The notes beneath the pieces were generated by a model that did not search any database, had not been told where the DNA came from, and saw only the letters and a list, made by a program, of their open reading frames with translations. DNA of 64,000 nucleotides from Alteromonas macleodii ATCC 27126 (GTDB lineage: Bacteria; Pseudomonadota; Gammaproteobacteria; Enterobacterales; Alteromonadaceae), in contig NC_018632.1 in NCBI RefSeq assembly GCF_000172635.2, positions 2,418,001-2,482,000 on the forward strand, written 5' to 3'. The position numbers and the translations under genes were made by a program. Positions 16,000 to 28,273 of this stretch are shown piece after piece. Every line of letters begins with the position of its first letter. Position 1 is the first letter of the stretch.

Positions 16000-16022
16000 C
16001 CACCAAAATGTTTCAATCATTT

Positions 16023-16051
16023 AAAAACGAGGCCTAGTGCCTCGTTTTTTT
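16023..16051 (+). terminator. Intrinsic terminator after cysK
   Basis: AAAAACGAGGC / GCCTCGTTTTT stem with a short loop and a T-run, 24 bases after the cysK stop. Confidence 0.9.
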
Positions 16052-16244
16052 ATGCCTACTCTCTTCTGTTTCTCCTGAAGTTTCATGAACACAAACACCT
16101 GAGTTTTACGCTCTATTACTTTGCTTTTGTGCGCAATATTGTGAATAATCAAAGCATAGATTAGCGAAGCGGCGAGCACATTGACTTCGTTGAGATATAA
16201 AACTATCAATAAGAAACGGACCTCTTTACATTAAGGTAATCCAA

Positions 16245-16703
16245 ATGAAAACGCGTATGTGGTACGCCCTATTCGGGCTTTTTACAGTGTTGATTTTATC
16301 CGCTTGCGGTAAAAAGGAAGAAGGCATCGGGCGGTACGGCATGCTTGATGAAAGTACCCCTGAGTACACCACCGTAGCGTTTCTCAAAAGTGTTTATGAA
16401 GATGACAACCTTGATACAGCAATTCGCCTATCAAGCGAAAAACTGTCTCGTATATTAACGAGATATCACACTAACAGTAACGTTCAGCGCCACCTCTTAA
16501 ACCTTAAATATGACACCGTCACCATCACGCCTCAAAGTGCAGGCCGAGTTGGCCGCAACGAGTTCGCAGAAAAATCGACAATCACCGTATTTTTAAGTGG
16601 AACATACAACGACGATAAAATTGAAGACTTGCGTAGCCTAGACTTGATTAAAGAAGACGGTGAATGGAAGGTTAATAAAATTCATCCAGATGCCTATTTA
16701 TAA
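16245..16703 (+). CDS. Small predicted lipoprotein of unknown function
   Basis: 152 residues. The N-terminus has a lipoprotein signal (FGLFTVLILSAC, lipobox LSAC, cysteine at residue 21), so it is probably attached to a membrane through a lipidated cysteine. The mature part has an alpha-plus-beta look: TTVAFLKSVYEDDNLDTAIRL, then beta-rich segments, ending DLIKEDGEWKVNKIHPD. This ending resembles NTF2/DUF4878-type lipoproteins where a W-K-V strand closes the fold, but I cannot name the family. AAGGTAATCCAA precedes the ATG. It is the last recognisable chromosomal gene before the cassette array. Confidence 0.75.
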   Translation: MKTRMWYALFGLFTVLILSACGKKEEGIGRYGMLDESTPEYTTVAFLKSVYEDDNLDTAIRLSSEKLSRILTRYHTNSNVQRHLLNLKYDTVTITPQSAGRVGRNEFAEKSTITVFLSGTYNDDKIEDLRSLDLIKEDGEWKVNKIHPDAYL

Positions 16704-16828
16704 CGTGTAGATAAACGCTGTTTTTATGGCCAGCAACGTAGCTTTTTACAAATGAAGAAAATAAAAAAGATGTTTTCCGGCTTTTATGCTTAAAGGCATT
16801 TATTTTTTGTTCAAAGTATTGTTTTAGG

Positions 16829-16912
16829 ATAACAATTTTAAAACGCTCATAAGTGATATACGGATAGTTTCCACCTTACATAAAGGATTTTTTCTGTACA
16901 TTAAATTGTTAT
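16829..16912 (+). repeat. 84-base element bounded by a 10-base inverted repeat; possible degenerate attC
   Basis: ATAACAATTT at 16829-16838 and its exact reverse complement AAATTGTTAT at 16903-16912 bound 84 bases immediately before the first gene of the cassette array. The left arm starts like the R'' side of the nearby attC sites (ATAACAA) and the right arm like their R' side (GTTAT), and the length is within the attC range. The inner arms typical of an attC are not clear, so it may be a worn attC or an unrelated palindrome. Confidence 0.4.
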
Positions 16913-16917
16913 AAGAC

Positions 16918-17193
16918 ATGGAAATGACGACTCTACAATTTAGCTTTCTAGTTTTTTGGATATTCCTTCTAGCTTTTTCATTGTTTGCCATTCGTAACTC
17001 AAAAAGCATGAAACCAAAAAGTAAATTCTTCGTGTACGTAGTAGTCTTTTTAGTGCCAGTCGTGGGCGGACTATTAATTTTGTTCATGCTATATCTCGAT
17101 AACGATCTCTTTTGGCAAAACAGCGCATCCCAGGACAATATGTGGATTGCTAAGAAAGAACTAGAAAGCTCCGATCATGGAGACATCGAGTAG
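16918..17193 (+). CDS. Small two-helix membrane protein, cassette-type gene (PLDc_N-like)
   Basis: 91 residues with two hydrophobic helices (about 7-25 and 36-58) and a hydrophilic acidic tail. The arrangement of a first helix, a short basic linker (RNSKSMKPKSKF), then a second helix with VPVVGGLLILFMLY, resembles the PLDc_N module found at the start of cardiolipin synthases and as small stand-alone proteins. The stop codon is followed four bases later by attC1, the normal layout of an integron cassette. An in-frame ATG two codons in (16924) is an alternative start. Function unknown. Confidence 0.65.
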   Translation: MEMTTLQFSFLVFWIFLLAFSLFAIRNSKSMKPKSKFFVYVVVFLVPVVGGLLILFMLYLDNDLFWQNSASQDNMWIAKKELESSDHGDIE

Positions 17194-17197
17194 TGTC

Positions 17198-17302
17198 TTA
17201 TAACAAGGCGCTCAAGTCGCCCACTGCGTGGGCTGGGACAAAAACACAATGCGGCTTCGCCATTATCGCATTGTATTTTTGCCCCTTAGCTTAGTGTTAT
17301 GC
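17198..17302 (+). repeat. attC site 1
   Basis: 105 bases from TTATAAC (R'') to GTTATGC (R'). Arms GGGACAAAAACACAATGCG and CGCATTGTATTTTTGCCCC pair around a short GCTTCGCCATTAT centre. It starts four bases after the stop of the 16918 gene. Confidence 0.85.
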
Positions 17303-17319
17303 ACTTACGGACACATTGA

Positions 17320-17649
17320 ATGGACTCAGACATTGAATTAAATATCAGCTTTAGATTCTTTTCGCTTACAGAAGAATTATCCAACGAAATCAAATCAAGC
17401 CTTAAAGCCTCATCTTGTAGACCTAATAAAAAATTAGGTGGTTTTGTAGTGTGCGTTCCTCTGACACCATCTTCACTGGAATTTATAGGAAGTTTTGTAA
17501 CTTCTAATTGTGTAGAAGTAGAGAATACAGATATCTTCGTTTCATTTGTTACTGAGTACGATTCAAGAGTCATTGATCTGCCAAATATTATCACTAAAGC
17601 TTCTTTTTCTATTGGCTCACCAGTTACACTCTCATATACGGTGGTTTAG
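17320..17649 (+). CDS. Cassette gene A: unknown protein
   Basis: 109 residues, no signal peptide or membrane segment, so probably cytoplasmic. The sequence is mixed alpha and beta, ending EYDSRVIDLPNIITKASFSIGSPVTLSYTVV, which has alternating hydrophobic residues as in a beta-sheet edge. I do not recognise the family. It lies 17 bases after attC1 and ends three bases before attC2, so it is a complete cassette. No strong ribosome site is visible, which is common in cassettes that depend on readthrough. Confidence 0.7.
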   Translation: MDSDIELNISFRFFSLTEELSNEIKSSLKASSCRPNKKLGGFVVCVPLTPSSLEFIGSFVTSNCVEVENTDIFVSFVTEYDSRVIDLPNIITKASFSIGSPVTLSYTVV

Positions 17650-17652
17650 GTG

Positions 17653-17835
17653 CATAACAACTCAATAAACTCACTCACTTCGTTCGCTGGGACGCATACA
17701 CGCAGGGCTGCTTCGCTATTATGCCCAACGTGCCTGCGCCCGTTATTGAAAAGTGCGTTCGCTGGGACGCATACATGCGGGGCGGCTTCGCCATTATGCC
17801 CCACATGCCTGCGCCCCTTATTTAAAAGTTATGTA
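17653..17835 (+). repeat. attC site 2, fused double copy
   Basis: 183 bases. A first copy runs from GCATAAC at 17653 but stops at AAAAGT (17754) without its R' box; a second copy resumes at GCGTTCGCTGGGACGC (17755) without its R'' box and ends GTTATGT at 17829-17835. Both halves contain the shared TTCGCTATTATG or TTCGCCATTATG centre. It looks like two attC sites joined by a deletion that removed a cassette gene. Confidence 0.8.
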
Positions 17836-17840
17836 TCAAG

Positions 17841-18266
17841 ATGAACATGCAAAATAAACTCTTTTTTGTCGCTTTAATATTAGTAGCCGTTTTTTCGTTC
17901 TTAGCAGGTAAATATTTTACACATTCAAAAAAGAGCTCAGAATACATAGATGCGTTAGTTACGACTGTCAATTTGTCTTCAGATCGTTGGAATGAAATCA
18001 AGCTTCTTACTGTTTTATATGAGGCCTCATTACAGGACAAGGAAACGGCTAAGTTTCAATATGTTCTTGCAGTGTCGCTCATGTTTCGTGACGATATTCG
18101 GCTGAGAGATATCTATAAAAATGACTATGGTTTAAATACCGGAACTTACAGTACCAATAACGCCGTCATTGAGTCTTTGAAAAAACATGGATTTACAGAG
18201 TGCGCTAATCTAAAAGGAGCAGATTTAGTCCAATGCAACTTGGATGTTTTAGAGAATGATGCATAA
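17841..18266 (+). CDS. Cassette gene B: membrane-anchored unknown protein
   Basis: 141 residues (139 if the second ATG at 17847 is used). One N-terminal hydrophobic helix (LFFVALILVAVFSFLAG, about 7-23) followed by a mainly helical, hydrophilic domain with a Cys pair near the end (ECANLKGADLVQC). It is probably anchored in the inner membrane with the domain outside. The stop TAA lies inside the R'' box of attC3. Cassette gene E has the same design: short, one N-terminal helix, helical body with cysteines. Family not recognised. Confidence 0.7.
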   Translation: MNMQNKLFFVALILVAVFSFLAGKYFTHSKKSSEYIDALVTTVNLSSDRWNEIKLLTVLYEASLQDKETAKFQYVLAVSLMFRDDIRLRDIYKNDYGLNTGTYSTNNAVIESLKKHGFTECANLKGADLVQCNLDVLENDA

Positions 18267-18368
18267 CAACTCAATAAACTCTCTCACTTCGTTCGCTGGG
18301 ACGCATACACGCAGGGCGGCTTCGCCATTATGCCCTACGTGACTGCGCCCGTTATTGAAAAGTTATAT
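18261..18368 (+). repeat. attC site 3
   Basis: 108 bases from GCATAAC to GTTATAT, nearly identical to the first half of attC2 and to attC4 (shared TTCGCTGGGACGCATACACG and GGCGGCTTCGCC blocks). Confidence 0.85.
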
Positions 18369-18383
18369 GCTTTTGAGGAATTC

Positions 18384-18764
18384 ATGCTATCTATCGCTGA
18401 ACAAAACAAAGAAGTGCATGTGAAGTCTTACTGTCAGAGTTGGTTAAGGCTGCTCTCTCTACAAAAGTTCAACGAAGCCCAGAAACTATTGGATTGTCCA
18501 AACAGCTACGGAGAAACTTGGACAGAAGCCAAATTAAAGTTTGCTGTTCAGGAATATTACAACAATACATCGCCAGTAACATTCCAAAATGAAGACCTTT
18601 CCAAATGTTTTCCTGAATATTTGGAAACCGAATCTGGAAACCTAATTTTTGGTTTCTATCTTCCGTCTAATAGTGAGATTACGGATTTAACAGTGGAGTT
18701 TGAGTTTATCCCGCAAGGTAATGGATTTTATGCAGCGACTATCAACGACGTCCATGTGTTGTAA
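18384..18764 (+). CDS. Cassette gene C: unknown soluble protein
   Basis: 126 residues from ATG 18384, chosen because GAGGA lies six bases upstream; a longer frame from 18330 would translate attC3 itself. No signal or membrane segment. Features: a helical N-terminus (VKSYCQSWLRLLSLQKFNEAQ), a middle CPNSYGETW, and a beta-rich end FEFIPQGNGFYAATINDVHVL. I recall similar small proteins ending in a D-I/V-H-V-L motif (possibly DUF7668) but cannot confirm this from sequence alone. Flanked by attC3 and attC4. Confidence 0.72.
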   Translation: MLSIAEQNKEVHVKSYCQSWLRLLSLQKFNEAQKLLDCPNSYGETWTEAKLKFAVQEYYNNTSPVTFQNEDLSKCFPEYLETESGNLIFGFYLPSNSEITDLTVEFEFIPQGNGFYAATINDVHVL

Positions 18765-18773
18765 TAGGCACGC

Positions 18774-18881
18774 ATATAACAAATCAATAAACTCGCTCAC
18801 TTCGTTCGCTGGGACGCATACACGCAGGGCGGATTCGCCATTATGCCCTACGTGCCTGCGCCCGTTATTGAAAAGTTATCT
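18774..18881 (+). repeat. attC site 4
   Basis: 108 bases from ATATAAC to GTTATCT with the same inner blocks as attC2 and attC3. Confidence 0.85.
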
Positions 18882-18887
18882 GCAAGA

Positions 18888-19286
18888 ATGAAAAGCATAC
18901 TTTATTTCGTTGTTTTAATTGTATCTTTTGGACCATCTGCGATTTTACTAACCCTTGGGGTTATATTTAGTCCCGTTTGGCTCTACCAGCTATTCGAGAG
19001 TAAAATGGCAACGCTGATCCCCTTCCTAATAGTATTAGCTGGTCTTTTAGGCTTTTGGGGGATGCTCGCACTTAACAACCTGACACTTTATCCGCATAAA
19101 ACAGATACTCCGCCTAGTCGATTAATTGTTTATCTATCTTTAGGCTGTATAGCGTCATTTACTGCAACTGTTTTTGCGGCATATATAGATTGGCTTTTTG
19201 CTATTGCTATGTTTCTACCAATTCCAGTAACCGCTTGTCTTACATATCGCAATAGAGCATATTTCCATAAGCAGGTTTGCAGCTAA
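18888..19286 (+). CDS. Cassette gene D: multi-pass membrane protein, unknown
   Basis: 132 residues from ATG 18888; an upstream in-frame start at 18843 would lie inside attC4. About four hydrophobic helices: roughly 4-28, 40-62, 78-97 and 100-118, with a short basic tail (YRNRAYFHKQ). It is probably an inner-membrane protein. The stop codon TAA (19284-19286) lies in the R'' region of attC5. No family recognised. Confidence 0.7.
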   Translation: MKSILYFVVLIVSFGPSAILLTLGVIFSPVWLYQLFESKMATLIPFLIVLAGLLGFWGMLALNNLTLYPHKTDTPPSRLIVYLSLGCIASFTATVFAAYIDWLFAIAMFLPIPVTACLTYRNRAYFHKQVCS

Positions 19287-19397
19287 CAAACAACTGTTGG
19301 CGCTCACTGCGTTCGCTGGGACACAAACACATGGGCTCCCTTCGCTTCGCTCGTTATTTTAGCCCATGTATTTGTGCCCCAAAGTTGGGCGTTATAC
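19281..19397 (+). repeat. attC site 5
   Basis: 117 bases from AGCTAAC to GTTATAC. Outer blocks resemble the others, but the central stem differs (ATGGGCTCCCTTCGCTTCGC with AGCCCAT downstream). The IS3-family element starts at its very end. Confidence 0.82.
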
Positions 19398-19452
19398 GCA
19401 GGACTTACCCAAACTTAGTGGACATCTCCTATAGTTAGATAAGAGGTGACTT

Positions 19453-19764
19453 ATGGCTAATAAAAAGAAGGTTCATGCTTACACTGAAGAGTTTCGTAAA
19501 GAGGCTGTTCGTCGAGCAGATCAAAAAGGTAACTCCAACCAATCCGTAGCCGCAGAGCTGGGGATTTCCGCACAACAAATCTACAACTGGCGTCGACAGT
19601 TCAAGCGCTGTGGGGGTCATCAATTCTCAACCATTCAAGGTGTGAAGTTTCATCAAGAAGACTCTGACGAAGTGCAAGCTCTCAAGCGTCAGCTGGCTGA
19701 CCTTAAAGAAGAGAATGCGTTTTTAAAAAAGGCTGCCGCGTACTTTGCGAGCGACCAAGAGTAA
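19453..19764 (+). CDS. IS3-family transposase OrfA
   Basis: 103 residues. An N-terminal helix-turn-helix (about 10-55; EEFRKEAVRRADQKG ... SAQQIYNWRRQF) for binding the IS ends and a C-terminal leucine-zipper-like helix (DEVQALKRQLADLKEENAFL) for multimerisation. The slippery heptamer AAAAAAG at about 19725-19731 is in the A-AAA-AAG phase, so a -1 shift fuses this frame to OrfB and gives the OrfAB transposase. Without the shift the protein ends at 19764. Confidence 0.93.
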   Translation: MANKKKVHAYTEEFRKEAVRRADQKGNSNQSVAAELGISAQQIYNWRRQFKRCGGHQFSTIQGVKFHQEDSDEVQALKRQLADLKEENAFLKKAAAYFASDQE

Positions 19765-19781
19765 AGTACGCGCTCATTAAA

Positions 19782-20618
19782 GTGTATGCGGGGCAGTTCA
19801 GAGTAACGGTGATGTGTCGGGCACTCAAAGTGTCTCGTTCTGGCTATTACAAGTACCTTATGCGAGGTATTCCCGCGCATCAGCAGCGTCGCAAACAACT
19901 GCGTGAGCATACCATGGCGCTCTTTGAAAAGTACCAAAAGCGTTATGGTGCACCCAGGTTAACACGCGCCTTGAAAGCTGAGAACGTCCCCTGCTGCGTT
20001 AATACCATTGCGAAAATCATGCAGCAACTACAGTTACGTGCTCGTAACGGTAGAGCGTTTAGATACTCGCAATATAGTCACAGTAATGTGCGCGTGAGTG
20101 AAAACGTTTTGCGCCGACAATTTGTAGCAACAAAGCCCAATACAAAGTGGGTCACTGACATCACTTACATTCGATTTAAAGGCCAATGGCATTACTTGGC
20201 TACCGTGATGGATTTGTACTCAAGAGCCATTGTTGGCTGGGCATTTGATAGTCATATGACCGAAGAACTCATTATACGCGCACTTAATATGGCGATTAGC
20301 CGACGAGACATAGAGCCTGGGTTAATCATTCACTCCGACAGAGGTGTTCAATATCGCTCTGTGCGATACCAAGACCTGATAATGAGCATCGGTGCTGTGT
20401 CCAGCATGAGCAGAAGGAGCAACTGCTGGGACAATGCAGTTATGGAGTCTTTCTTCAGTCGTATGAAAGTCGAACTCATATACGGGGAGAAATTCAACTC
20501 GCTTCAGGAAATCAAATCTTGTATCTTCGAATACATCGAAATTTTTTATAATCGCGTGCGTCAGCATTCTACATTGGGCTATGTCAGCCCATATGAATAC
20601 GAAGCAACTTACGCTTAA
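19782..20618 (+). CDS. IS3-family transposase OrfB (DDE integrase domain)
   Basis: 278 residues from a GTG, though it is normally made as the C-terminal part of OrfAB after the -1 frameshift near 19725-19731; the open frame extends back across that site. The retroviral-integrase-like catalytic triad is D126 (KWVTDITYI), D186 (IIHSDRGVQY) and E222 (AVMESFFSRMK), with 35 residues between the last two, the classic DD35E spacing. The N-terminal HTH_21-like region precedes it. The protein appears full length and functional. Confidence 0.93.
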   Translation: MYAGQFRVTVMCRALKVSRSGYYKYLMRGIPAHQQRRKQLREHTMALFEKYQKRYGAPRLTRALKAENVPCCVNTIAKIMQQLQLRARNGRAFRYSQYSHSNVRVSENVLRRQFVATKPNTKWVTDITYIRFKGQWHYLATVMDLYSRAIVGWAFDSHMTEELIIRALNMAISRRDIEPGLIIHSDRGVQYRSVRYQDLIMSIGAVSSMSRRSNCWDNAVMESFFSRMKVELIYGEKFNSLQEIKSCIFEYIEIFYNRVRQHSTLGYVSPYEYEATYA

Positions 20619-20666
20619 CATGGATGTCCACTTTTAGTGGGTAAGACCAGCACAAGGAAGTATTGA

Positions 20667-21017
20667 ATGAAACATAAGATTATTTGTTCACTATTCTCAA
20701 TAGCCATTTTTACTTCGGGATTATTTCTCGGCGCATATATCAGTACGTCGGCGGGCGCTAGTTCAAACTCTACAGAGTTATATAGCAGCATTATTCATCT
20801 TTCTTCTGTTCATCAACAAATAGAAAATGGTGAATTAGAAAACGCAAAACAAGCCATCTGTAGTTTCGTCAGAACACGCATCGAATTACTAGAGCTTGGC
20901 CATCAAATTCTTAACGAAAATAGGGCCAAGGAAGTAATGGTTCTAAAACAAAGTATGGAGAAAATGCTTTCAAACACATCGCAAGCCAGCACTTCGTTAG
21001 CTGAAACTTGTGTTTAA
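20667..21017 (+). CDS. Cassette gene E: exported or membrane-anchored unknown protein
   Basis: 116 residues. The N-terminal hydrophobic segment (IICSLFSIAIFTSGLFLGAYI, about 5-25) could be a signal peptide or anchor; the rest is helical (HQQIENGELENAKQAICSFVRTRIELLELG) with a serine-rich tail and a Cys near the end. GGAAG lies about eight bases before ATG. The IS ends just 16 bases upstream, so any transcript from cassettes A-D is interrupted. The stop lies in the R'' box of attC6. Same design as cassette gene B; family unknown. Confidence 0.7.
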   Translation: MKHKIICSLFSIAIFTSGLFLGAYISTSAGASSNSTELYSSIIHLSSVHQQIENGELENAKQAICSFVRTRIELLELGHQILNENRAKEVMVLKQSMEKMLSNTSQASTSLAETCV

Positions 21018-21116
21018 CGAGGCGCTTAACGCGTTCCCTTTGGTCACTGGGACAGTAACGCAACGGCACTTCGTAGATATGTCGCTACGTCACTGCCTCA
21101 AAGCTTAGCGTTATAT
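21012..21116 (+). repeat. attC site 6
   Basis: 105 bases from GTTTAAC to GTTATAT. Its inner sequence (ACTGGGACAGTAACGCAACG ... CGCTACGTCACTGCCTC) differs from sites 2-4 but folds the same way. Confidence 0.83.
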
Positions 21117-21130
21117 CGCGGGATAGTTCG

Positions 21131-21541
21131 ATGGAAGACAAGTACTTAGTTATTTACGATGGGGTGTGTAACTTCTGTAATGGAGCAGTTGCCTTTATTT
21201 TGAAGCGCGACAAAACTGAACGTTTTATATTCTCACCAATGCAATCAGAATATGCTCAAGAAGTTATCGAACGTTACAAAGTTGATACTGTAGGTGTTGA
21301 TACTTTTATGTTAGTTAAGAACGGAAACGTTTTTCTTTGGTCTGACGCTGCACTAGAAATCGCAAAAGACTTAACTGGGTTCTGGTTTTTATTCGGTGTA
21401 ACTAAAATCTTGCCGCGTTCTTTTAGAGACTTCTTCTACAGAATTTTTGCTCGCAACCGTATTAAGCTTTTCGGTGGTACAAAGCATTGTCAAATACCCG
21501 ATAAAAAGGTCTTAGGGAGGTTCAGAGGTCTTGCGATGTAA
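21131..21541 (+). CDS. Cassette gene F: DCC-family thiol-disulfide protein (DUF393)
   Basis: 136 residues. The N-terminal YDGVCNFCNGAVAFI carries the DxxCxxC motif (C13 and C16) that defines the DCC/DUF393 family (YuxK-like), thioredoxin-fold proteins proposed to act in thiol-disulfide exchange. The central ALEIAKDLTGFWFLFGV and the RDFFYRIFARNRIKLFG segment are also typical. Full length for the family. It is the only cassette product here with a clear family. It lies between attC6 and attC7; the stop codon falls in the attC7 R'' box. Confidence 0.88.
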   Translation: MEDKYLVIYDGVCNFCNGAVAFILKRDKTERFIFSPMQSEYAQEVIERYKVDTVGVDTFMLVKNGNVFLWSDAALEIAKDLTGFWFLFGVTKILPRSFRDFFYRIFARNRIKLFGGTKHCQIPDKKVLGRFRGLAM

Positions 21542-21643
21542 CAAACAAATAAAGCCGTTCCCGTTGGTCACTAGAAGGCATACACGCGGGGCGGCTTCGC
21601 CATTATGCTCAGCGCATATGCGCCTCTTAGCTTAATGTTAGAA
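21536..21643 (+). repeat. attC site 7
   Basis: 108 bases from ATGTAAC to GTTAGAA. The central TACACGCGGGGCGGCTTCGC / GCCATTATGCTC region is shared with sites 2-4, while the left arm carries CTAGAAGG where the others have CTGGGACG. Confidence 0.8.
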
Positions 21644-21658
21644 GCTTCTGAGAAATCA

Positions 21659-22024
21659 ATGGCTAAATCAGAAATAAGACGATTCTTAAAAGAGATCCGC
21701 ACTAAGTTTCCTGACGTTGTTCCTCTTATGGAAAAACATGAAAATTGGGCACTCACATTTCTAATGGGAGAGTTTGCAAATTTGACGACTATTTTGTTAA
21801 ACCAAGGCGACTTAGAAGAAGCACTTGAGCAGTTGCAGTACATGAGCGAGAAACTAGATACTGCAACCGAAGCAGAATTCGAGTACATAGATGTATATTA
21901 TACAGAGCACTTATTCTGGAAAGGTACCAAAGAAGGTATTGAACGTGGCTGGCCTCTCGTCCCAGATAATCTCAAAAAACTGTACTTGGACTTTCATGGT
22001 AAACCACCTAGGGTAGTGGTTTAG
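21659..22024 (+). CDS. Cassette gene G: unknown acidic helical protein
   Basis: 121 residues from ATG 21659; a longer frame from 21605 would begin inside attC7. Soluble, mostly helical and acidic: SEIRRFLKEIRTKFPDVVPLMEKHE, then LEEALEQLQYMSEKLDTATEAE, then TEHLFWKGTKEGIERGWPLVP. I recall a family of similar small proteins (possibly DUF7674) but cannot confirm it. No attC follows directly; instead a coding remnant (22012-22257) intervenes before attC8, so this cassette appears joined to part of another. Confidence 0.7.
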   Translation: MAKSEIRRFLKEIRTKFPDVVPLMEKHENWALTFLMGEFANLTTILLNQGDLEEALEQLQYMSEKLDTATEAEFEYIDVYYTEHLFWKGTKEGIERGWPLVPDNLKKLYLDFHGKPPRVVV

Positions 22025-22257
22025 ATAAGGTTGAGGGAAGTACAATTTTACAAAGTACGATTGATGGCTTTTGTGAAACTCAGCGCTCTAAAGATGTCTT
22101 TAAAAAATTAAGACGTTTTATATCCAATAAAGCGATTAAAAAGTCTGGTGTTCTATTTTTCCCTGAGGCTTACGATAACCTGAAAAATGGTTGGCGATTA
22201 ACCCCAATTCTAACTGGTGTGCCTGAGTTAGATGTTAAGCTTGAACCTTACAGTTAA
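22012..22257 (+). pseudogene. Remnant of a cassette gene, start missing
   Basis: An open frame of 81 codons with no usable start, overlapping the end of cassette gene G in another frame and ending TAA at 22255. It reads coherent protein such as FCETQRSKDVFKKLRRFIS and SGVLFFPEAYDNLKNGW, so it is probably the C-terminal part of a gene whose 5' end and preceding attC were deleted. attC8 follows 12 bases on, as for a normal cassette. Family not recognised. Confidence 0.55.
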
Positions 22258-22268
22258 GAGTGTTTTAA

Positions 22269-22371
22269 ACATAACAAACGCTTTAACCAAGGGACGAAAA
22301 ACAGCAAGCTTGCGCTCCTTCGTCGCTAATTTTAGCCTGCTATTTTGCGCCAGTTTAGCTAGGCGGTATGC
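22269..22371 (+). repeat. attC site 8 (diverged)
   Basis: 103 bases from ACATAAC to GGTATGC. The R' box has GGTATG where others have GTTATG. Inner arms GGGACGAAAAACAGCA and TGCTATTTTGCGCC still pair. It is the last recognisable attC of the array. Confidence 0.72.
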
Positions 22372-22384
22372 ATCAAGGTAAATA

Positions 22385-22572
22385 ATGAATCGAGCGCCCC
22401 TTTCAAAAGAACCAGTTAACCTATTTATTCTTTTAAAGATGGCTTACACCGATTCTTTGGGTGCCAATGTGCTGAACAGGCATCTGAGCAGACTGCTCAA
22501 GCAACTGTTTTAAAATTGGAGCTAACTATCCGTTTTCTCCATTCAAAAGTAAGTTATTTGGAAAATGCGTAA
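22385..22572 (+). pseudogene. Terminal cassette gene, apparently frameshifted
   Basis: ATG at 22385 follows AAGG six bases upstream, right after attC8, as in a cassette. The frame runs only 42 codons (to 22513). A different frame continues the coding look from about 22430 to TAA at 22570 (KDGLHRFFGCQCAEQASEQ), so a one-base change near AAAGATGGC probably broke a gene of about 64 codons. No attC follows. The next 87 bases to the DUF3291 gene show nothing clear, apart from a short ATAAAACGCGTTCACTAAG stretch like the left side of an attC. Confidence 0.4.
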
Positions 22573-22659
22573 ACTAATTCCAAGACAGGCATTTCTAAGT
22601 ACTAGACCTAGATTAACTTTATAAAACGCGTTCACTAAGTTAAGAGGCAAGGAGACAAT

Positions 22660-23112
22660 ATGCATCTCGCTCAATTGAATATTGGAAAAGTCAGGTTTAA
22701 CTTGGAGTCCCCCGAAATGGCGGACTTTGTAAATAACCTAGACCCTATCAACGCCATTGCTGAACAAAGTCCAGGATTTATCTGGCGTTTGAAAGACGAA
22801 TCAGGTGATGCCACTAATATAGAGGTAGAAAATAACCCAGATATCATTGTTAACATGTCTGTTTGGGAAAGCGTAGAGTCCCTTAAGAACTTCATGTTCA
22901 AGACGCATCACATTGATTTCCTTAAGCGTAAAAAAGAGTGGTTTTTGCCCTTAAGCGAAGCATCTTATGTGCTTTGGTGGATACCGAAGGGTCATATTCC
23001 AACCCTTCAGGAAGCTATCACTAAATTAGACCATCTTCGAGAAAATGGAGAATCTCAGGATGCATTTAGTTTTAAAAGTAGTTACCCCAAGCCTGAATTG
23101 GAGAATCATTGA
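22660..23112 (+). CDS. DUF3291-domain protein
   Basis: 150 residues. It begins HLAQLNIGKVRFNLESPEM and contains SPGFIWRLKDE, MSVWESVESLKNFMF and WWIPKGHIPT, the hallmark segments of DUF3291, a dimeric ferredoxin-like (ABM-type) fold of unknown function. Full length. The ribosome site AAGGAG lies six bases before ATG. It is the first intact gene to the right of the cassette array and may itself be accessory; no attC is associated with it. Confidence 0.85.
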   Translation: MHLAQLNIGKVRFNLESPEMADFVNNLDPINAIAEQSPGFIWRLKDESGDATNIEVENNPDIIVNMSVWESVESLKNFMFKTHHIDFLKRKKEWFLPLSEASYVLWWIPKGHIPTLQEAITKLDHLRENGESQDAFSFKSSYPKPELENH

Positions 23113-23274
23113 TGTTTCCAAGGTCAGAAGGCACACTAGTAAGAAGCTCGAACTGGCCGTTGAAATACGTAAGCACGGATCCCGACACGTAGATTCTAAT
23201 TTTCGCACACGAGTTTCACATCTTAGATGGCTGCCGTGTTCTCTATTAGATAGTTTAATAAGAAAGGATATTTT

Positions 23275-23544
23275 ATGAACTTATCGTTTTTACTTGTACT
23301 TTTTATCTCTTTTTTCACAATAAATATCCTACCTTGGGTTCTAGCACTTATATCTAAAAAGGCTTCTGGTAATAACAAGGTCATCTGGTTCTTGATGTCG
23401 TTTTTATTATCATGGCTAGGCTTTATCGTTTATTACTATCTTGTGATTAAGCCAGAATGGAAAGCTGAGTTAGAAAGAAAAAAATCAAAAAGAATACTCA
23501 GAAATGAAAATGGAATGCCTATTAAAATGTATGAGCAATCTTAA
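23275..23544 (+). CDS. Small membrane protein, unknown
   Basis: 89 residues with two hydrophobic helices (about 3-26 and 35-58) separated by a short basic loop (SKKASGNNK), and a strongly basic tail (ELERKKSKRILR). The helix-loop-helix with FLLSWLGFIVYYYLVI resembles small superinfection-immunity or PLDc_N-like membrane proteins; I cannot decide between them. AAAGGA lies about eight bases upstream of ATG. The 162 bases before it hold no recognisable gene. Confidence 0.6.
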   Translation: MNLSFLLVLFISFFTINILPWVLALISKKASGNNKVIWFLMSFLLSWLGFIVYYYLVIKPEWKAELERKKSKRILRNENGMPIKMYEQS

Positions 23545-23639
23545 GGTTAAAATTGACACGCATTTTATCAACGCTTATATGTAGATGAACACTAGTGATA
23601 GCCTAAATCTATATTTTGAAAATTCACGAAGGAACGACA

Positions 23640-23873
23640 ATGCCTATAAAAAAATGGACTTTACAATACCTAGTCGCATTTCCCTTGCTGGCCACTATTT
23701 TTGCCAGTGTTCAATACTTTAAAGGCCAGTCTTTTTCCTACTCTCTTGAATTCGGGGTTACATGGGCTTTTATATCTATTTCTATATTTGCAGCTCGCCG
23801 CATTTACAATTTTAAAAAGCGGATCCATTGCGAAATATGCAACGATATACAAAATCATAAGACCATTGAATAA
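23640..23873 (+). CDS. Small membrane protein, unknown
   Basis: 77 residues from ATG 23640, preferred over a TTG at 23616 because AAGGA sits eight bases before it. Two hydrophobic helices (about 9-26 and 36-54) and a C-terminal tail with a CxxC-like pair (HCEICND), which could bind a metal. No family recognised. It stands alone between two other small plus-strand genes. Confidence 0.55.
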   Translation: MPIKKWTLQYLVAFPLLATIFASVQYFKGQSFSYSLEFGVTWAFISISIFAARRIYNFKKRIHCEICNDIQNHKTIE

Positions 23874-23936
23874 TTGAGCGCGCTATTTCAGTTGAGTACT
23901 CAACCTTAATTTCATGTTAAAAAAACGGGTAAAAAA

Positions 23937-24791
23937 ATGAAAACACAAACCTTACTTATCTATTTTTTCTTTTCCTTGCTAGTCTCTTTCTCGTGTGAAG
24001 CCTCTACGCGTTCGCTAAAAATAGAAGATGATGGTTTTGTTGCTACGTATTACTCTTCAGAGTCACAAGAACGTAAAGTTGGCGTTTTAGTGCTTGGAGG
24101 ATCCGAAGGCGGCGTGCCAGAAAAGCTCGCTAGTCCAATCGTTGAAGCGGGATTCCCTACCCTAGCTTTAGCTTATTTTAAGGAAGAAGGCTTACCACCA
24201 GAGTTAGAGAGAATACCTCTTGAATATGTAATTCAGGCTATGTCGTGGTTAAAATCACAACCAGAAACCACGCCGGACGACATTATTGTAGTTGGCTGGT
24301 CGAAAGGCGCTGAACTGTCACTTCTTCTAGCGTCAAAAGAACCAAGTATTTCAAATGTGGTTGCTATTGCGCCTAGCTCTGTTGTTTGGGCAGGTATTTT
24401 GAAAGATTGGAGTAAAGTGCCTGGTTCCAGCTGGACTTACGACGGGCAAGACTTAGCGTTTGTTCCTTTCAACCCGTCGGGTGAAGTTAATGGTTTGCTA
24501 GATCTCTATACGCAATCTTTAGAAAATCGAGCAGACAACGGTAAAGCTAATATTCCTGTACAGAAAATCAGCGCCGATGTTGTGTTAATGACTGGCGAAA
24601 ACGATGAAATTTGGCCCTCGCCTACTATGGCTGAAACAGTTTGTGAAAAAATGAATGCGCGCACTAAACATAAGTGTAAGCACATAAACTACCAAGGGGC
24701 AGACCACTTGCTTAACTACGAGTTCTTAAAAGAGGGTAGCGATATGAACCAAACCTTTATTAAGATGCTTACTAATCACAATAACCACTAG
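23937..24791 (+). CDS. Exported alpha/beta hydrolase (BAAT/dienelactone hydrolase-like)
   Basis: 284 residues with an N-terminal signal peptide (about 1-23). The hydrolase core shows VGVLVLGGSEGG (oxyanion region), the nucleophile elbow GWSKG, an acidic residue in MTGENDEIWPS and a histidine in GADHLLNYEF, a complete Ser-Asp-His set. The layout matches the C-terminal domain of acyl-CoA thioester hydrolase/bile acid acyltransferase (BAAT_C). Because it is exported, a periplasmic ester or beta-lactam-like substrate is more likely than an acyl-CoA, but the substrate is unknown. Confidence 0.8.
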   Translation: MKTQTLLIYFFFSLLVSFSCEASTRSLKIEDDGFVATYYSSESQERKVGVLVLGGSEGGVPEKLASPIVEAGFPTLALAYFKEEGLPPELERIPLEYVIQAMSWLKSQPETTPDDIIVVGWSKGAELSLLLASKEPSISNVVAIAPSSVVWAGILKDWSKVPGSSWTYDGQDLAFVPFNPSGEVNGLLDLYTQSLENRADNGKANIPVQKISADVVLMTGENDEIWPSPTMAETVCEKMNARTKHKCKHINYQGADHLLNYEFLKEGSDMNQTFIKMLTNHNNH

Positions 24792-24817
24792 TCAGCTTCT
24801 TCAATAAATAGAATCAT

Positions 24818-25186
24818 ATGACCATTGATGAATTCAATCACTATTGCAAAGCACTCCCCCACACTACTCACGTCGTTCAGTGGGGGAATTCAGAAGTATG
24901 GAAAGTAGGTGGTAAAGTCTTTGCTATAGGGAGCATTAGCAAGGACGGACACCCCGCTTTTACCTTTAAAACATCTGAGCAAAACTATTATTTTCTGGAA
25001 GAAAAGCCTGGCTATAGGCCTGCACCCTATCTCGCTAGTCGTGGAATGAAATGGATACAACAGTACAATTGCGAGAGTGATGAAGATGAAGCGTTAAAAT
25101 ACTATTTAAGCGCATCTTATAAACTAGTATCGTTAGGGTTAACCAAGAAAATGCAAAAAGAGCTTGGTTTAAATCAACCTCAATAA
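24818..25186 (+). CDS. MmcQ/YjbR-family protein
   Basis: 122 residues. MTIDEFNHYCKALPHTTHVVQWG and KVFAIGSI, PGYRPAPYLASRGMKWIQ are the family signatures. YjbR/MmcQ proteins have a CyaY-like fold and are often described as DNA-binding, with no settled role. Full length. It starts 26 bases after the hydrolase and is followed 13 bases on by the DUF3703 gene, so it is likely part of one transcript. Confidence 0.88.
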   Translation: MTIDEFNHYCKALPHTTHVVQWGNSEVWKVGGKVFAIGSISKDGHPAFTFKTSEQNYYFLEEKPGYRPAPYLASRGMKWIQQYNCESDEDEALKYYLSASYKLVSLGLTKKMQKELGLNQPQ

Positions 25187-25199
25187 AGGTGCTTACACC

Positions 25200-25577
25200 A
25201 TGTTCAAAGCAAAAGGCTTTACGCGCAATATTCGCCCTTATGTAGAAGCTGAACTAGCGCTAGCTCATAGAAAGCAAAACCAAAACAGCCAACAGTGTGC
25301 TTTTTCACACTTAGAAAATGCCCACGTTCTTGGTCAAGCCTCTACAAGGCTACACGTTAAAGTACACGTTCAAATGCTTTTATGGGCAGTGAAACAAGGC
25401 AATATTGGTGAGTTTTTTGGTCAACTTTTCAGAATTGCGGGCGCTGCCACAAAAACTGTTTTTGGGCTAGTACCTCATGGAAATACAGGTGGCGCTAACG
25501 TTAGCCCATTTAAGGCAATGCCAATTAAACCAGACTTAAATACGATCATAAAAAAAGCGCGTTCGAATGAAAATTAA
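25200..25577 (+). CDS. DUF3703 family protein
   Basis: 125 residues, no membrane segment. The segments HLENAHVLGQASTRLHVKVHVQML and VPHGNTGGANVSPFKAMPI match DUF3703, a small family of unknown function often found near metal-resistance genes. Its last 11 bases overlap the start of the PhzF gene, so the two are translationally linked. Confidence 0.82.
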   Translation: MFKAKGFTRNIRPYVEAELALAHRKQNQNSQQCAFSHLENAHVLGQASTRLHVKVHVQMLLWAVKQGNIGEFFGQLFRIAGAATKTVFGLVPHGNTGGANVSPFKAMPIKPDLNTIIKKARSNEN

Positions 25578-26358
25578 AATTAACGTTGTCGATGCATTTA
25601 CTAATGTAAGGTTTAAGGGCAATCCTGCTGCAGTAGTTATAACGGGTAAATGGCTTAGCGATGAAAAAATGCAAGAAATCGCTGCTGAAAATAACCTTTC
25701 AGAAACCGCCTTTTTAGTTGAAGATGATAATGGCGTATTCGCTATACGTTGGTTTTCCCCTGTGACGGAAATCGACTTCTGTGGCCACGCAACGCTGGCA
25801 TCCGCGTTCGTAATCTTTAGCGAAAATTACCAATTACCGCACATTTCTCTATTCGCCAAGTCGGTTGGTACGATGAAAGTCGTTAAAAAAAGCGACGGAT
25901 TTATTCAGATGGATTTCCCCAATAGAATGCCCAGCCCTGTCGGTGAAGTGCCTGAAGCGTTACTAAAAGGGCTCTCTATCAAGCCCAAAAGCATTTTAAA
26001 AAATAACCAAGCTTACTTTGCTGTTTATTCTAACGAAGACGACGTTTTAAGCGTAATTCAAGACAGCGAGCAGCTAAAAACACTAGCGCCTTATGATGTG
26101 GTAGTGACAGCGCCTGGTACGCAATTTGACTTCGTATCCCGTTACTTCTGGCCTGCGAACGGCGGTGATGAAGACCCGGTTACCGGTTCAATCCACACTG
26201 GGCTAGCGCCTTATTGGGCAAAAGTATTTGGACGATCAAAACTTATGGCTTATCAGGCATCTAAACGAGGCGGCACATTAAAATGTGAGGTGGCAGGTGA
26301 CCGCGTGCTTATTTCTGGCCAAGCGGTGTCTTACCTTGAAGGTTACATTAATATTTGA
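25567..26358 (+). CDS. PhzF-family isomerase
   Basis: 263 residues. N-terminal INVVDAFTNVRFKGNPAAVV, the catalytic glutamate in NNLSETAFLV, the DFCGHATLAS motif and the second-half GGDEDPVTGSIHTGLAPYW are diagnostic of the PhzF/diaminopimelate-epimerase-like fold. Stand-alone PhzF proteins catalyse proton shifts on unknown metabolites; phenazine synthesis is not implied because no other phz gene is present. It overlaps the DUF3703 gene by 11 bases. Confidence 0.9.
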   Translation: MKIKINVVDAFTNVRFKGNPAAVVITGKWLSDEKMQEIAAENNLSETAFLVEDDNGVFAIRWFSPVTEIDFCGHATLASAFVIFSENYQLPHISLFAKSVGTMKVVKKSDGFIQMDFPNRMPSPVGEVPEALLKGLSIKPKSILKNNQAYFAVYSNEDDVLSVIQDSEQLKTLAPYDVVVTAPGTQFDFVSRYFWPANGGDEDPVTGSIHTGLAPYWAKVFGRSKLMAYQASKRGGTLKCEVAGDRVLISGQAVSYLEGYINI

Positions 26359-26430
26359 TGGTTGATTGCCTTACATGAACTAATCGATAAAAGAGAACTC
26401 TTCTCTCGAGTGTTACTGCCCGCCTCAAAC

Positions 26431-26463
26431 AAAAAAGCGGAAGATATCTAACCTTCCGCTTTC
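26431..26463 (-). terminator. Intrinsic terminator of ggt
   Basis: Read on the minus strand, GAAAGCGGAAGG pairs with CTTCCGCTTTTTT and ends in a T-run. It lies about 50 bases past the ggt stop; it may also stop transcription coming from phzF. Confidence 0.8.
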
Positions 26464-26515
26464 ACTCACGCAACAGCGCATTGCTGCATCTAGTTTTAAC
26501 TAGGCAAATGTAATA

Positions 26516-28273
26516 TTAGCGCCCTACTGCAATGCCCTCTCTGCGAGGATCTGCGCCGCCAATTAATTTACCTGATTTAAACTGAATGCCATGAAGACCG
26601 CTGTTTGAATCCACTACTTTAACGTTATGGCCGAGTGCCTTTAACGGCTCTTCAAGCTCAGCTATTGGTGTGCCCTTCTCTAACGCAGTGTAGTCGTTTC
26701 GATTAGTAATTTTAGGAAGATTGATGGCTTGCTGAATATCCAAGCCAAAGTCTAAAACTCCAATTAGGGTTTGAGCGACGTAGCTTACAATTCTAGAGCC
26801 GCCCGGCGAGCCTACAACCACCTCTAAATTCCCTTCTTTGTCGAACACCATTGTAGGGCTCATAGCACTTCTAGGACGCTTACCAGGCTCTACGCGATTT
26901 GGTACTGGAAAACGGTTTTTGGTTGGCGAAAATGAAAAGTCGGTAAGCTGATTATTAAGCAGGAAGCCTTCTACCATAATCCCAGAACCAAACATAAATT
27001 CAATGCTGGTAGTCATTGATACTGCATTGCCCTCTTTGTCTACTATAGAAACGTGTGAGGTATTGGGCAGCTCCATTGACGTACCAAGTGCTACATTCGC
27101 ATCGGCGTAGGGATTGCCCGCGCGTTTGCGGCGCCACTCTTTATCAACAGCAATACTCTCAGCTCGGCGCTGAAGATAAGCGGTATTAATCATGGCCGCA
27201 AACGGCAAGTTAGTAAAATCGCTATCCGCAATGAACTTCTCGCGGTCGGCATATGAAAGCGCACTTGCTTGCGTATAAAGGTTGGCAAACTCTACTGAAT
27301 CCGGTGCGTATTGACTAAGGTTAAAACCTTCTAACATTTTTAGAATTTGATAAACGTTTACGCCACCTGAGCTAGGTGGTGCCATACCGCAAATGCGTTT
27401 TTCGTGGTACAAGCCACATACGGGTTCACGTTTTACTGGTTCATAGCTTGCTAAATCTTCCAACGACATTTGGCCAGGGTTAATCTCCGCATTATTAACC
27501 GCTTCCACTATTTTTTCGGCAACTTCGCCTTTCAGCAAATAATCGCTGCCCTTTTCCGCAATACCTCTTAGGGTTTTAGCTAACTTTTTGTTTTTCTTAA
27601 CCGTGCCTTCTTTTAACGGCAGGCCTGCCGGGAAGAAATAAGTAGAGCTTGCAGGAAAAGTTTTAAGACCAGGGTGATAGTCCAATGCAACAAGTTTGGC
27701 TAAACGCGGCGATACTTTAAAGCCGTCTTCAGCTGTTTTGATTGTATCGTCGAACAGCGTATTCCAAGGCAGCTTACCGAACTCGCCCTGAGCCATTTCT
27801 AGCGCTTTTACTGCACCAGGCACGCCAACTGACTTACCGCCTACTACTGCATCTAACCAGCGCATTGGCTTATTACCTTCAATAAACCAATGAGAATTGA
27901 CAGCTTTCGGTGCGGTTTCACGGCCGTCAAAGGTGTGAAGTACTTTGTTCTTATTATCCCAATAAAGGATAAACGCACCACCACCAATACCTGACGATTG
28001 TGGTTCAACCAGCGAAAGCATCGATTGCACAGCTACCGCTGCATCGATCGCACTTCCGCCCTTTTCTAAAATATTCTTTCCCGCCCAAGACGCATAGGGA
28101 TTTGCCGCTACAACCATATAATCTTCGGCTTCAAATGCCTTTTTCTCTATGTAGCCTGTTGCCGCTTCTGGTTCTCCGACTTCACGTGGTTGCTTCGCGT
28201 TCGCACCAAAAATAAAACAGCTAGATAATGCAAGAGTTACCACTGAAGCTCTGAAAAAAGCACTGCGTCTCAA
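26516..28273 (-). CDS. ggt: Gamma-glutamyltransferase (glutathione hydrolase)
   Basis: 585 residues, normal for a periplasmic GGT precursor. An N-terminal signal peptide (VVTLALSSCFIFGANA) is followed by the large subunit (GGSAIDAAVAVQSMLSLVEPQSSGIGGGAF). The self-cleavage and nucleophile threonine is in NTSHVSIVDKEGNAVSMTTS, which would begin the small subunit; the lid and oxyanion segments RPRSAMSPTMVF and GSPGGSRI follow. It hydrolyses glutathione and gamma-glutamyl peptides. The enoyl-CoA hydratase gene lies 14 bases upstream on the same strand, so they may be co-transcribed. Confidence 0.95.
   Translation of the reverse strand: MRRSAFFRASVVTLALSSCFIFGANAKQPREVGEPEAATGYIEKKAFEAEDYMVVAANPYASWAGKNILEKGGSAIDAAVAVQSMLSLVEPQSSGIGGGAFILYWDNKNKVLHTFDGRETAPKAVNSHWFIEGNKPMRWLDAVVGGKSVGVPGAVKALEMAQGEFGKLPWNTLFDDTIKTAEDGFKVSPRLAKLVALDYHPGLKTFPASSTYFFPAGLPLKEGTVKKNKKLAKTLRGIAEKGSDYLLKGEVAEKIVEAVNNAEINPGQMSLEDLASYEPVKREPVCGLYHEKRICGMAPPSSGGVNVYQILKMLEGFNLSQYAPDSVEFANLYTQASALSYADREKFIADSDFTNLPFAAMINTAYLQRRAESIAVDKEWRRKRAGNPYADANVALGTSMELPNTSHVSIVDKEGNAVSMTTSIEFMFGSGIMVEGFLLNNQLTDFSFSPTKNRFPVPNRVEPGKRPRSAMSPTMVFDKEGNLEVVVGSPGGSRIVSYVAQTLIGVLDFGLDIQQAINLPKITNRNDYTALEKGTPIAELEEPLKALGHNVKVVDSNSGLHGIQFKSGKLIGGADPRREGIAVGR

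Follow-up and report, generated by a model that had tools for sequence, protein, structure and literature searches.

An integrase-less cassette array at the cysM locus

We analyzed a 64-kb stretch of the Alteromonas macleodii ATCC 27126 genome (hereafter, the window; contig NC_018632.1, positions 2,418,001 to 2,482,000), which carries at the cysM locus an array of integron cassettes together with its flanks. The host genome is one contig of 4,653,851 bases. Eight attC sites lie in a single orientation between 17198 and 22372, their bottom strand being the minus strand of the window, and each of the eight cassettes ends in one of them, as in a complete integron (Table 1). An earlier note on this DNA, made from the letters alone, had described eight such sites in one orientation, and attC models did not reject them: a covariance model of 81 sites from 10 loci in other genomes (R3) detects all eight, with scores from 110.8 down to 29.2 bits (E-values from 4e-35 up to 8e-7), and the remaining three R3 matches in the 64 kb have E-values of 0.41, 2.2, and 7.4. 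R3 was built because a first covariance model (R1), made from seven of the window's eight sites, is circular for its source sites; the sites for R3 were collected using R1, and R3 is independent of R1 in sequence but inherits its starting structure. The weakest window site is the last (29.2 bits; fold z -1.0). Folding with DNA parameters, a check suggested in the note, favors the bottom strand in six of the eight sites; in sites 7 and 8, the top strand is ahead by a small margin. Part of site 2 is duplicated in tandem, and the truncated second copy has identical stretches of 78 and 80 nt in the attC of arrays from two other genomes (G012 and G021). A search of positions 16000-27000 against Rfam returned no attC match and only two chance-level matches.

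A whole-genome scan with R1 yielded 14 matches at E<=10, a lower bound given that scoring covered only 150 of the 711 first-look candidates. Nine of the matches fall in the window array, two lie beside a broken intI (C1:518344 and 519121), and a weak one is found at 3217493. The other two are lone attC-like sites far from arrays, C1:2529537-2529642 (E 2e-8) and C1:2225827-2225958 (E 8e-6) (L027, L029); they adjoin open frames of ~210-430 codons and are possibly lone cassettes.

The integrase gene that would sit beside the array of a complete integron is absent. Using TIGR02249 over its cut-off, we found no IntI in the window, as the note had stated, and none in the host genome. The only intI found in the host is a remnant at C1:520036-520566, 1.9 Mb from the array, whose locus retains its attI and two attC. 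Against the corresponding locus of G001, the remnant aligns at 92% on either side of a ~415-bp gap inside intI, with two one-base gaps elsewhere; because alignment of this quality flanks the gap, the loss looks fairly recent and is not just a sequencing slip. Among 59 genomes of the genus, IntI is detected in 56, a few of them with internal stops (without: G000, G013, and G036). At 1e-30, TIGR02249 matches none of 14 control genomes, and at 0.001 it matches all 14. Weak matches to NF011946 (XerC/XerD-like) were set aside as IntI candidates because this probe also matches all 14 controls. The xerD-like gene of the host (L002:1043-1968; C1:735854-736779) is split into two overlapping frames of 189 and 118 aa, which is a frameshift or a sequence error.

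An attI and part of a leader at the head of the array

The note placed the start of the array at 17198; the true start is earlier, with cassette 1 beginning at 16909 and an attI, assigned by homology, at 16851-16912. Comparison with relatives shows that, in species after species, homology to the left of the array breaks off near 16912. The conserved segment is a ~62-nt core ending TAAATTG|TTA, which adjoins intI in 10 of the 11 loci first examined (the host's own remnant and nine of L060-L069; L068 in G043 is without it) and heads 12/12 arrays at the cysM locus (the window and 11 other species). By this homology, the array has at its head the attI of a complete integron.

Upstream, a LexA-like box (CTG-N10-CAG) starts 14 nt past the stop of a lipoprotein gene, and intI, which would be expected next, is absent. 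The box and an A-rich block at 16758-16778 both align with the leader that separates attI from intI at intI loci. Our yardstick for this box is the E. coli consensus. The host lexA gene has CTGTCTGTTCATACAG 7 nt upstream of its start, which supports the LexA-like motif at 16718-16733.

The attI cores, including the window's (16862-16895), also contain two GGA-N5-TCC repeats ~23 nt apart with an AT-rich variable middle, the second repeat being imperfect in the window. These are possibly accessory IntI sites, which most attI are reported to lack (PMC8191803).

Dispersal of attI copies without intI

The note's resident Alteromonas cassette pool is borne out by attC matches in 59/59 genus genomes. 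For attI, we used a model (R2) with which 91 candidates per genome were scored under strict filters, so the counts that follow are lower bounds, and a few weaker matches stand outside them. R2 finds attI copies in 30 of the 59 genomes. In 24 of them a copy adjoins intI, and all but two of the 30 (G033 and G053), hence 28, carry at least one intI-distant copy with E below 1e-7. Such satellite copies number 13 at cysM (including one near a contig end in G044) and 31 elsewhere, and 43 of them (12 at cysM and the 31) were compared. Four of the 31 lie at contig ends; the other 27 all head a correctly oriented attC array, whose first attC follows 274-1933 bp downstream. The upstream 1.5-kb flanks of the non-cysM copies contain a single attC (L197); at L183, 12 attC of opposite orientation lie further on.

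Leader homology in the 43 copies spans about 59-214 nt upstream of the crossover and never reaches the position of the intI start, at 223 (for L204, BLAST gave no match at the threshold used). Seven IntI proteins matched none of the 43 upstream 1.3-kb flanks. CTG-N10-CAG occurs at 175-205 nt from the crossover, a range chosen after viewing the alignment, in 24 of the 43 copies (11 of the 12 at cysM) compared with 0.8% of shuffles; it stands at 204 nt in 9 of 10 intI loci. Among 10 cysM platforms, identity is 0.87 in the attI core and 0.85 in the box, compared with 0.68 between them and 0.63 before the box.

Outside the genus, R2 matched in one genome (G065), among 5 matching genomes in a family-wide sample of 147. 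G065 has intI elsewhere and five intI-less attI copies, the core being identical in four and the box standing at 208-209 nt in four; attC follow downstream of all five. At C1:1025633-1032688 of this genome (L234, L235), an attC run extends to either side of one attI, so that two intI-less platforms stand back to back. For a second attI type, searched with an 85-nt query, we found one match each in five genomes, two in G038, and a weak one in G031; with one or two matches per genome, wide dispersal is not seen for this type.

In its literal sense, at least two attC without an adjacent intI, the note's label of a cluster of attC sites lacking an integron integrase (CALIN) fits the array. It misses the point because a platform, headed by attI, is present. 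A plain CALIN would arise by IntI-mediated insertion of cassettes into attG, that is, a genomic site that is neither attI nor attC (PMC12444791), followed by growth through attC x attC recombination. The absence of a nearby intI would agree with such an origin, as would the commonness of attC clusters away from intI, including those at conserved places in Xanthomonas (PMC12444791). The left edge of the array, however, is an attI module, a ~62-nt attI with leader blocks common to intI loci, and attG has neither; all 43 copies have the core and no upstream IntI match, and every one of the 27 copies with room for an array heads one. We consider a plain CALIN very improbable here.

Cassette turnover and exchange with intI arrays

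The fixed repeats without turnover that the note had entertained as a counter-case do not describe this locus. In 23 genomes that we selected out of the 59, attC occur at cysM in 12 and are absent in 11, and in 6 of these 11 the lipoprotein gene directly adjoins ggt. The first cassettes are distinct in 12/12 cysM species, each joined at G|TTA, and within the first 400 nt past the crossover the twelve arrays share no pairwise match beyond two pieces of 42-48 nt. In G022, attI is fused exactly to the counterpart of window cassette 2, and only cassette 1 is missing. The arrays of G038 and G041 are found on the other side of the lipoprotein gene, between it and cysM; given this difference in position, a platform seems to have been placed or moved at this locus on more than one occasion.

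Cassettes are shared with arrays that adjoin intI. For cassette 3, the intI array of G021 holds a counterpart whose body is identical at 421 of 422 nt (96.9% over 622 nt when attC is included). Cassette 4 has its counterpart in the intI array of G058, with 397 of 400 nt identical in the body and 98.4% identity over 617 nt once attC is included; in contrast, the cysM regions are 85% (G021) and 82% (G058) identical. Cassette 8 has 94.7% (G001) and 94.0% (G022) nucleotide identity to cassettes at the same locus. Sharing also occurs within single genomes: in 3 of the 16 genomes in which both kinds of array were compared, the satellite and intI arrays contain an identical or nearly identical cassette with exact borders. 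In G018 (357/357 nt) and G047 (498/498 nt), the cassette directly at the satellite attI is that of the intI array, with G|TTA borders; in G024, 480 of 481 nt are shared, not at the array head.

A ~1.6-kb multi-copy element, roughly 85%-92% identical across species, recurs inside the cassette arrays of relatives (L156, L164, L167, L172, L205, L213, L219, L228, L229, and L230).

Cassettes in common with intI arrays might also be explained if the window array were the displaced tail of a main array, brought here by inversion or translocation, and the note had offered the tail of a longer array as one reading. Such a tail would have attC at its head rather than attI, and satellite attI occur in 28 genomes; the window array shows no long synteny with the tail of an intI array, sharing only single stretches of 295-622 nt. 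The array's own attI head and the adjoining lipoprotein gene and ggt in six of the attC-less genomes both speak against the note's reading, and we find a displaced tail barely credible.

A fossil, that is, an ancient copy of an integron that has done nothing but decay after losing intI, is a stronger rival, although still an unlikely one. Deletion, homologous recombination, and transposition would then account for the differences among cassettes. Decay of this kind is consistent with the insertion sequence (IS) in cassette 6, the doubled site 2, the degenerate site 8, the deletion in the host intI, and the 19 of 43 satellite copies without the LexA-like box. It sits poorly with the conservation of attI core and box, which in a ten-species comparison exceeds that of the sequence around them, with twelve distinct first cassettes joined at G|TTA, and with the occurrence within one genome of cassettes that are identical over their full length between a satellite attI and the intI array.

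Cassette products, insertion element, and flanks

Six of the eight cassette products have no Pfam family above cut-off, in line with the note's count of five or six familyless products; the other two are DCC1-like and DUF7674. On visual inspection, several are short and contain hydrophobic stretches. One weak PADLOC match of product 6 to DrmC (E 0.0056) and three PDB sequence matches of product 4 (E 0.7-0.8) were not believed, and products 3 and 6, compared for a common origin, gave no alignment. The note's observation that stop codons fall in or beside the next site applies to seven cassettes, whose open reading frames (ORFs) end in, or at most 12 nt from, the next attC; it fails for cassette 8, whose ORF ends 246 nt upstream of site 8. 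The 76-codon open stretch that follows the DUF7674 ORF within cassette 8 (22027-22257) may be a second gene, or else what is left of a cassette whose attC was lost.

The element in cassette 6 belongs to the IS3 family, as shown by its IS3 transposase and by the inverted ends and 3-bp CAG/CAG repeat read from the sequence. It is absent from the earlier note, as are the attI head, the start of the first cassette, and the doubling of site 2. Its position just after an attC end (window 19392-19410) recurs in the intI array of G041 (L228:1921-2214), where the element follows a different attC at the same offset, as if it favors cassette starts or travelled with them.

Table 1. Features of the cassette array and its flanks (window coordinates)
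Feature	Position	Strand	Description
Lipoprotein-like chromosomal gene	16245..16703	+	Left of platform; conserved near cysM/ggt in array-bearing and array-less relatives alike; no Pfam above cut-off
LexA-like box CTG-N10-CAG	16718..16733	.	Imperfect, CCAG for ACAG; distance to crossover matches intI-locus box
A-rich leader block	16758..16778	+	Aligns with same block of intI loci
attI core (by homology)	16851..16912	+	Crossover at G 16908|T 16909; homologous to intI-adjacent attI
Cassette 1	16909..17296	+	ORF 16918-17193, 91 aa, no family; absent in G022
attC site 1	17198-17302	-	R3 84.9 bits
Cassette 2	17297..17828	+	ORF 17320-17649, 109 aa, no family; 83.6% nt identity to first cassette of G022, same locus
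attC site 2, doubled	17655-17834	-	Full copy 17655-17754 (R3 89.7 bits) and 5'-truncated copy 17756-17834
Cassette 3	17829..18362	+	ORF 17841-18266, 141 aa, no family above cut-off
attC site 3	18263-18368	-	R3 106.7 bits
Cassette 4	18363..18875	+	ORF about 18384-18764, 126 aa; DUF7668 weak, below cut-off
attC site 4	18776-18881	-	R3 110.8 bits
Cassette 5	18876..19391	+	ORF about 18888-19286, 132 aa, no family
attC site 5	19283-19397	-	R3 99.1 bits
Cassette 6	19392..21110	+	ORF 20667-21017, 116 aa, no family; interrupted by IS
IS3-family element in cassette 6	19402..20647	+	ORFs 19453-19764 and 19782-20618; NF033516 317.7 bits (second ORF)
attC site 6	21014-21119	-	R3 58.2 bits
Cassette 7	21111..21637	+	ORF 21131-21541, DCC1-like thiol-disulfide oxidoreductase family, PF04134 93 bits
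attC site 7	21538-21643	-	R3 80.0 bits
Cassette 8	21638..22365	+	ORF about 21659-22024, DUF7674, PF24722 53 bits
attC site 8, right end	22270-22372	-	R3 29.2 bits, E 8e-7; degenerate R' GGTATGC
DUF3291 gene, right chromosomal flank	22660..23112	+	PF11695 193.6 bits; adjoins lipoprotein gene in G038, whose array sits elsewhere

A probable satellite platform, with proposed loading in trans

Taken on sequence comparison, the array is likely a satellite integron platform, consisting of a leader, attI, and eight cassettes but no intI, which was loaded in trans by one IntI and is stranded in this strain. The IntI encoded at the intI locus of ancestors and living relatives would insert cassette circles at the satellite attI in trans, as at its own attI; most likely, it would accept as a target every attI core of its type that a cell contains. 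A satellite platform would be the descendant of an integron copy that was without intI or was stripped of it. With ~415 bp missing from within the only intI found, both known platforms of the host would now be stranded.

A number of observations weigh against this interpretation. The LexA-like box has no intI to regulate; it is missing in the 19 satellite copies mentioned above and imperfect in the window. Scans for a sigma-70-like cassette promoter (Pc) performed no better than on shuffled sequences, and the sole site found lies inside cassette 1. In six genomes with cysM arrays (G021, G022, G023, G037, G038, and G041), the IntI is that of another attI type, so the satellite attI of those genomes may lack a cognate enzyme. 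Comparison of satellite and intI arrays gave no stretch of at least 97% identity and at least 250 nt in 10 of the 16 genomes; the 3.2 kb shared in G041 is mostly multi-copy element, and the longer segments shared in G012 (2.1 kb, 97.5%) and G023 (1.45 kb, 99%) are outside the three cases with exact borders. In G065, one of the five downstream attC is weak (26.7 bits), and R2 does not match the leader beside intI.

We give about an even chance to a more general proposal, that of integrons with one integrase and many platforms. A ~210-nt module of LexA-like box and attI, lacking intI, would disperse through chromosomes, head an array at each copy, be kept by selection, and be loaded in trans; the module may also control the array under DNA damage, and many CALINs would be live platforms. 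The LexA-like box is often retained in two genera despite the absence of intI. A control of this kind has to be set against a report that the V. cholerae cassette promoter is outside the SOS regulon (PMC3948777).

Relation to known systems and significance

Some elements of this picture are already known. A 2014 study of an Alteromonas integron island found attC clusters away from intI in all genomes then studied (PMC4119200); it concerns the same genus, and its two integrase-less regions with attC may include the window locus. For those further regions, the accessible passages report attC only, and describe no attI, leader, LexA box, or trans loading. A CALIN is defined by IntegronFinder 2.0 as at least two attC without intI (PMC9024848); the window array is alike in this respect and differs by its attI head. 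The CALINs of Xanthomonas likewise occupy conserved chromosomal places away from intI, and their mobilization in trans has been mentioned, although the available passages, unlike our window, make no mention of attI (PMC12444791). In the chromosomal integron of Vibrio cholerae, insertion takes place preferentially at the attI that heads the array (PMC8191803), as we propose for the window; there, the integrase promoter is SOS-induced (PMC8191803 and PMC3948777), and attI adjoins intI, unlike here. An orphan attI head, its dispersal, a retained LexA-like box, and exchange with intI arrays were not found in the literature searched, which did not extend to bioRxiv or most subscription papers.

One proposal holds that CALINs are degraded integrons. 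The intI-less array of the window retains a docking site and part of a leader, and relatives carry several such platforms, with cassettes in common between these and the intI array. IntegronFinder seeks no attI outside class 1 (PMC9024848), so active satellite platforms may be overlooked elsewhere. The system poses a direct question: does one IntI serve several attI per cell?

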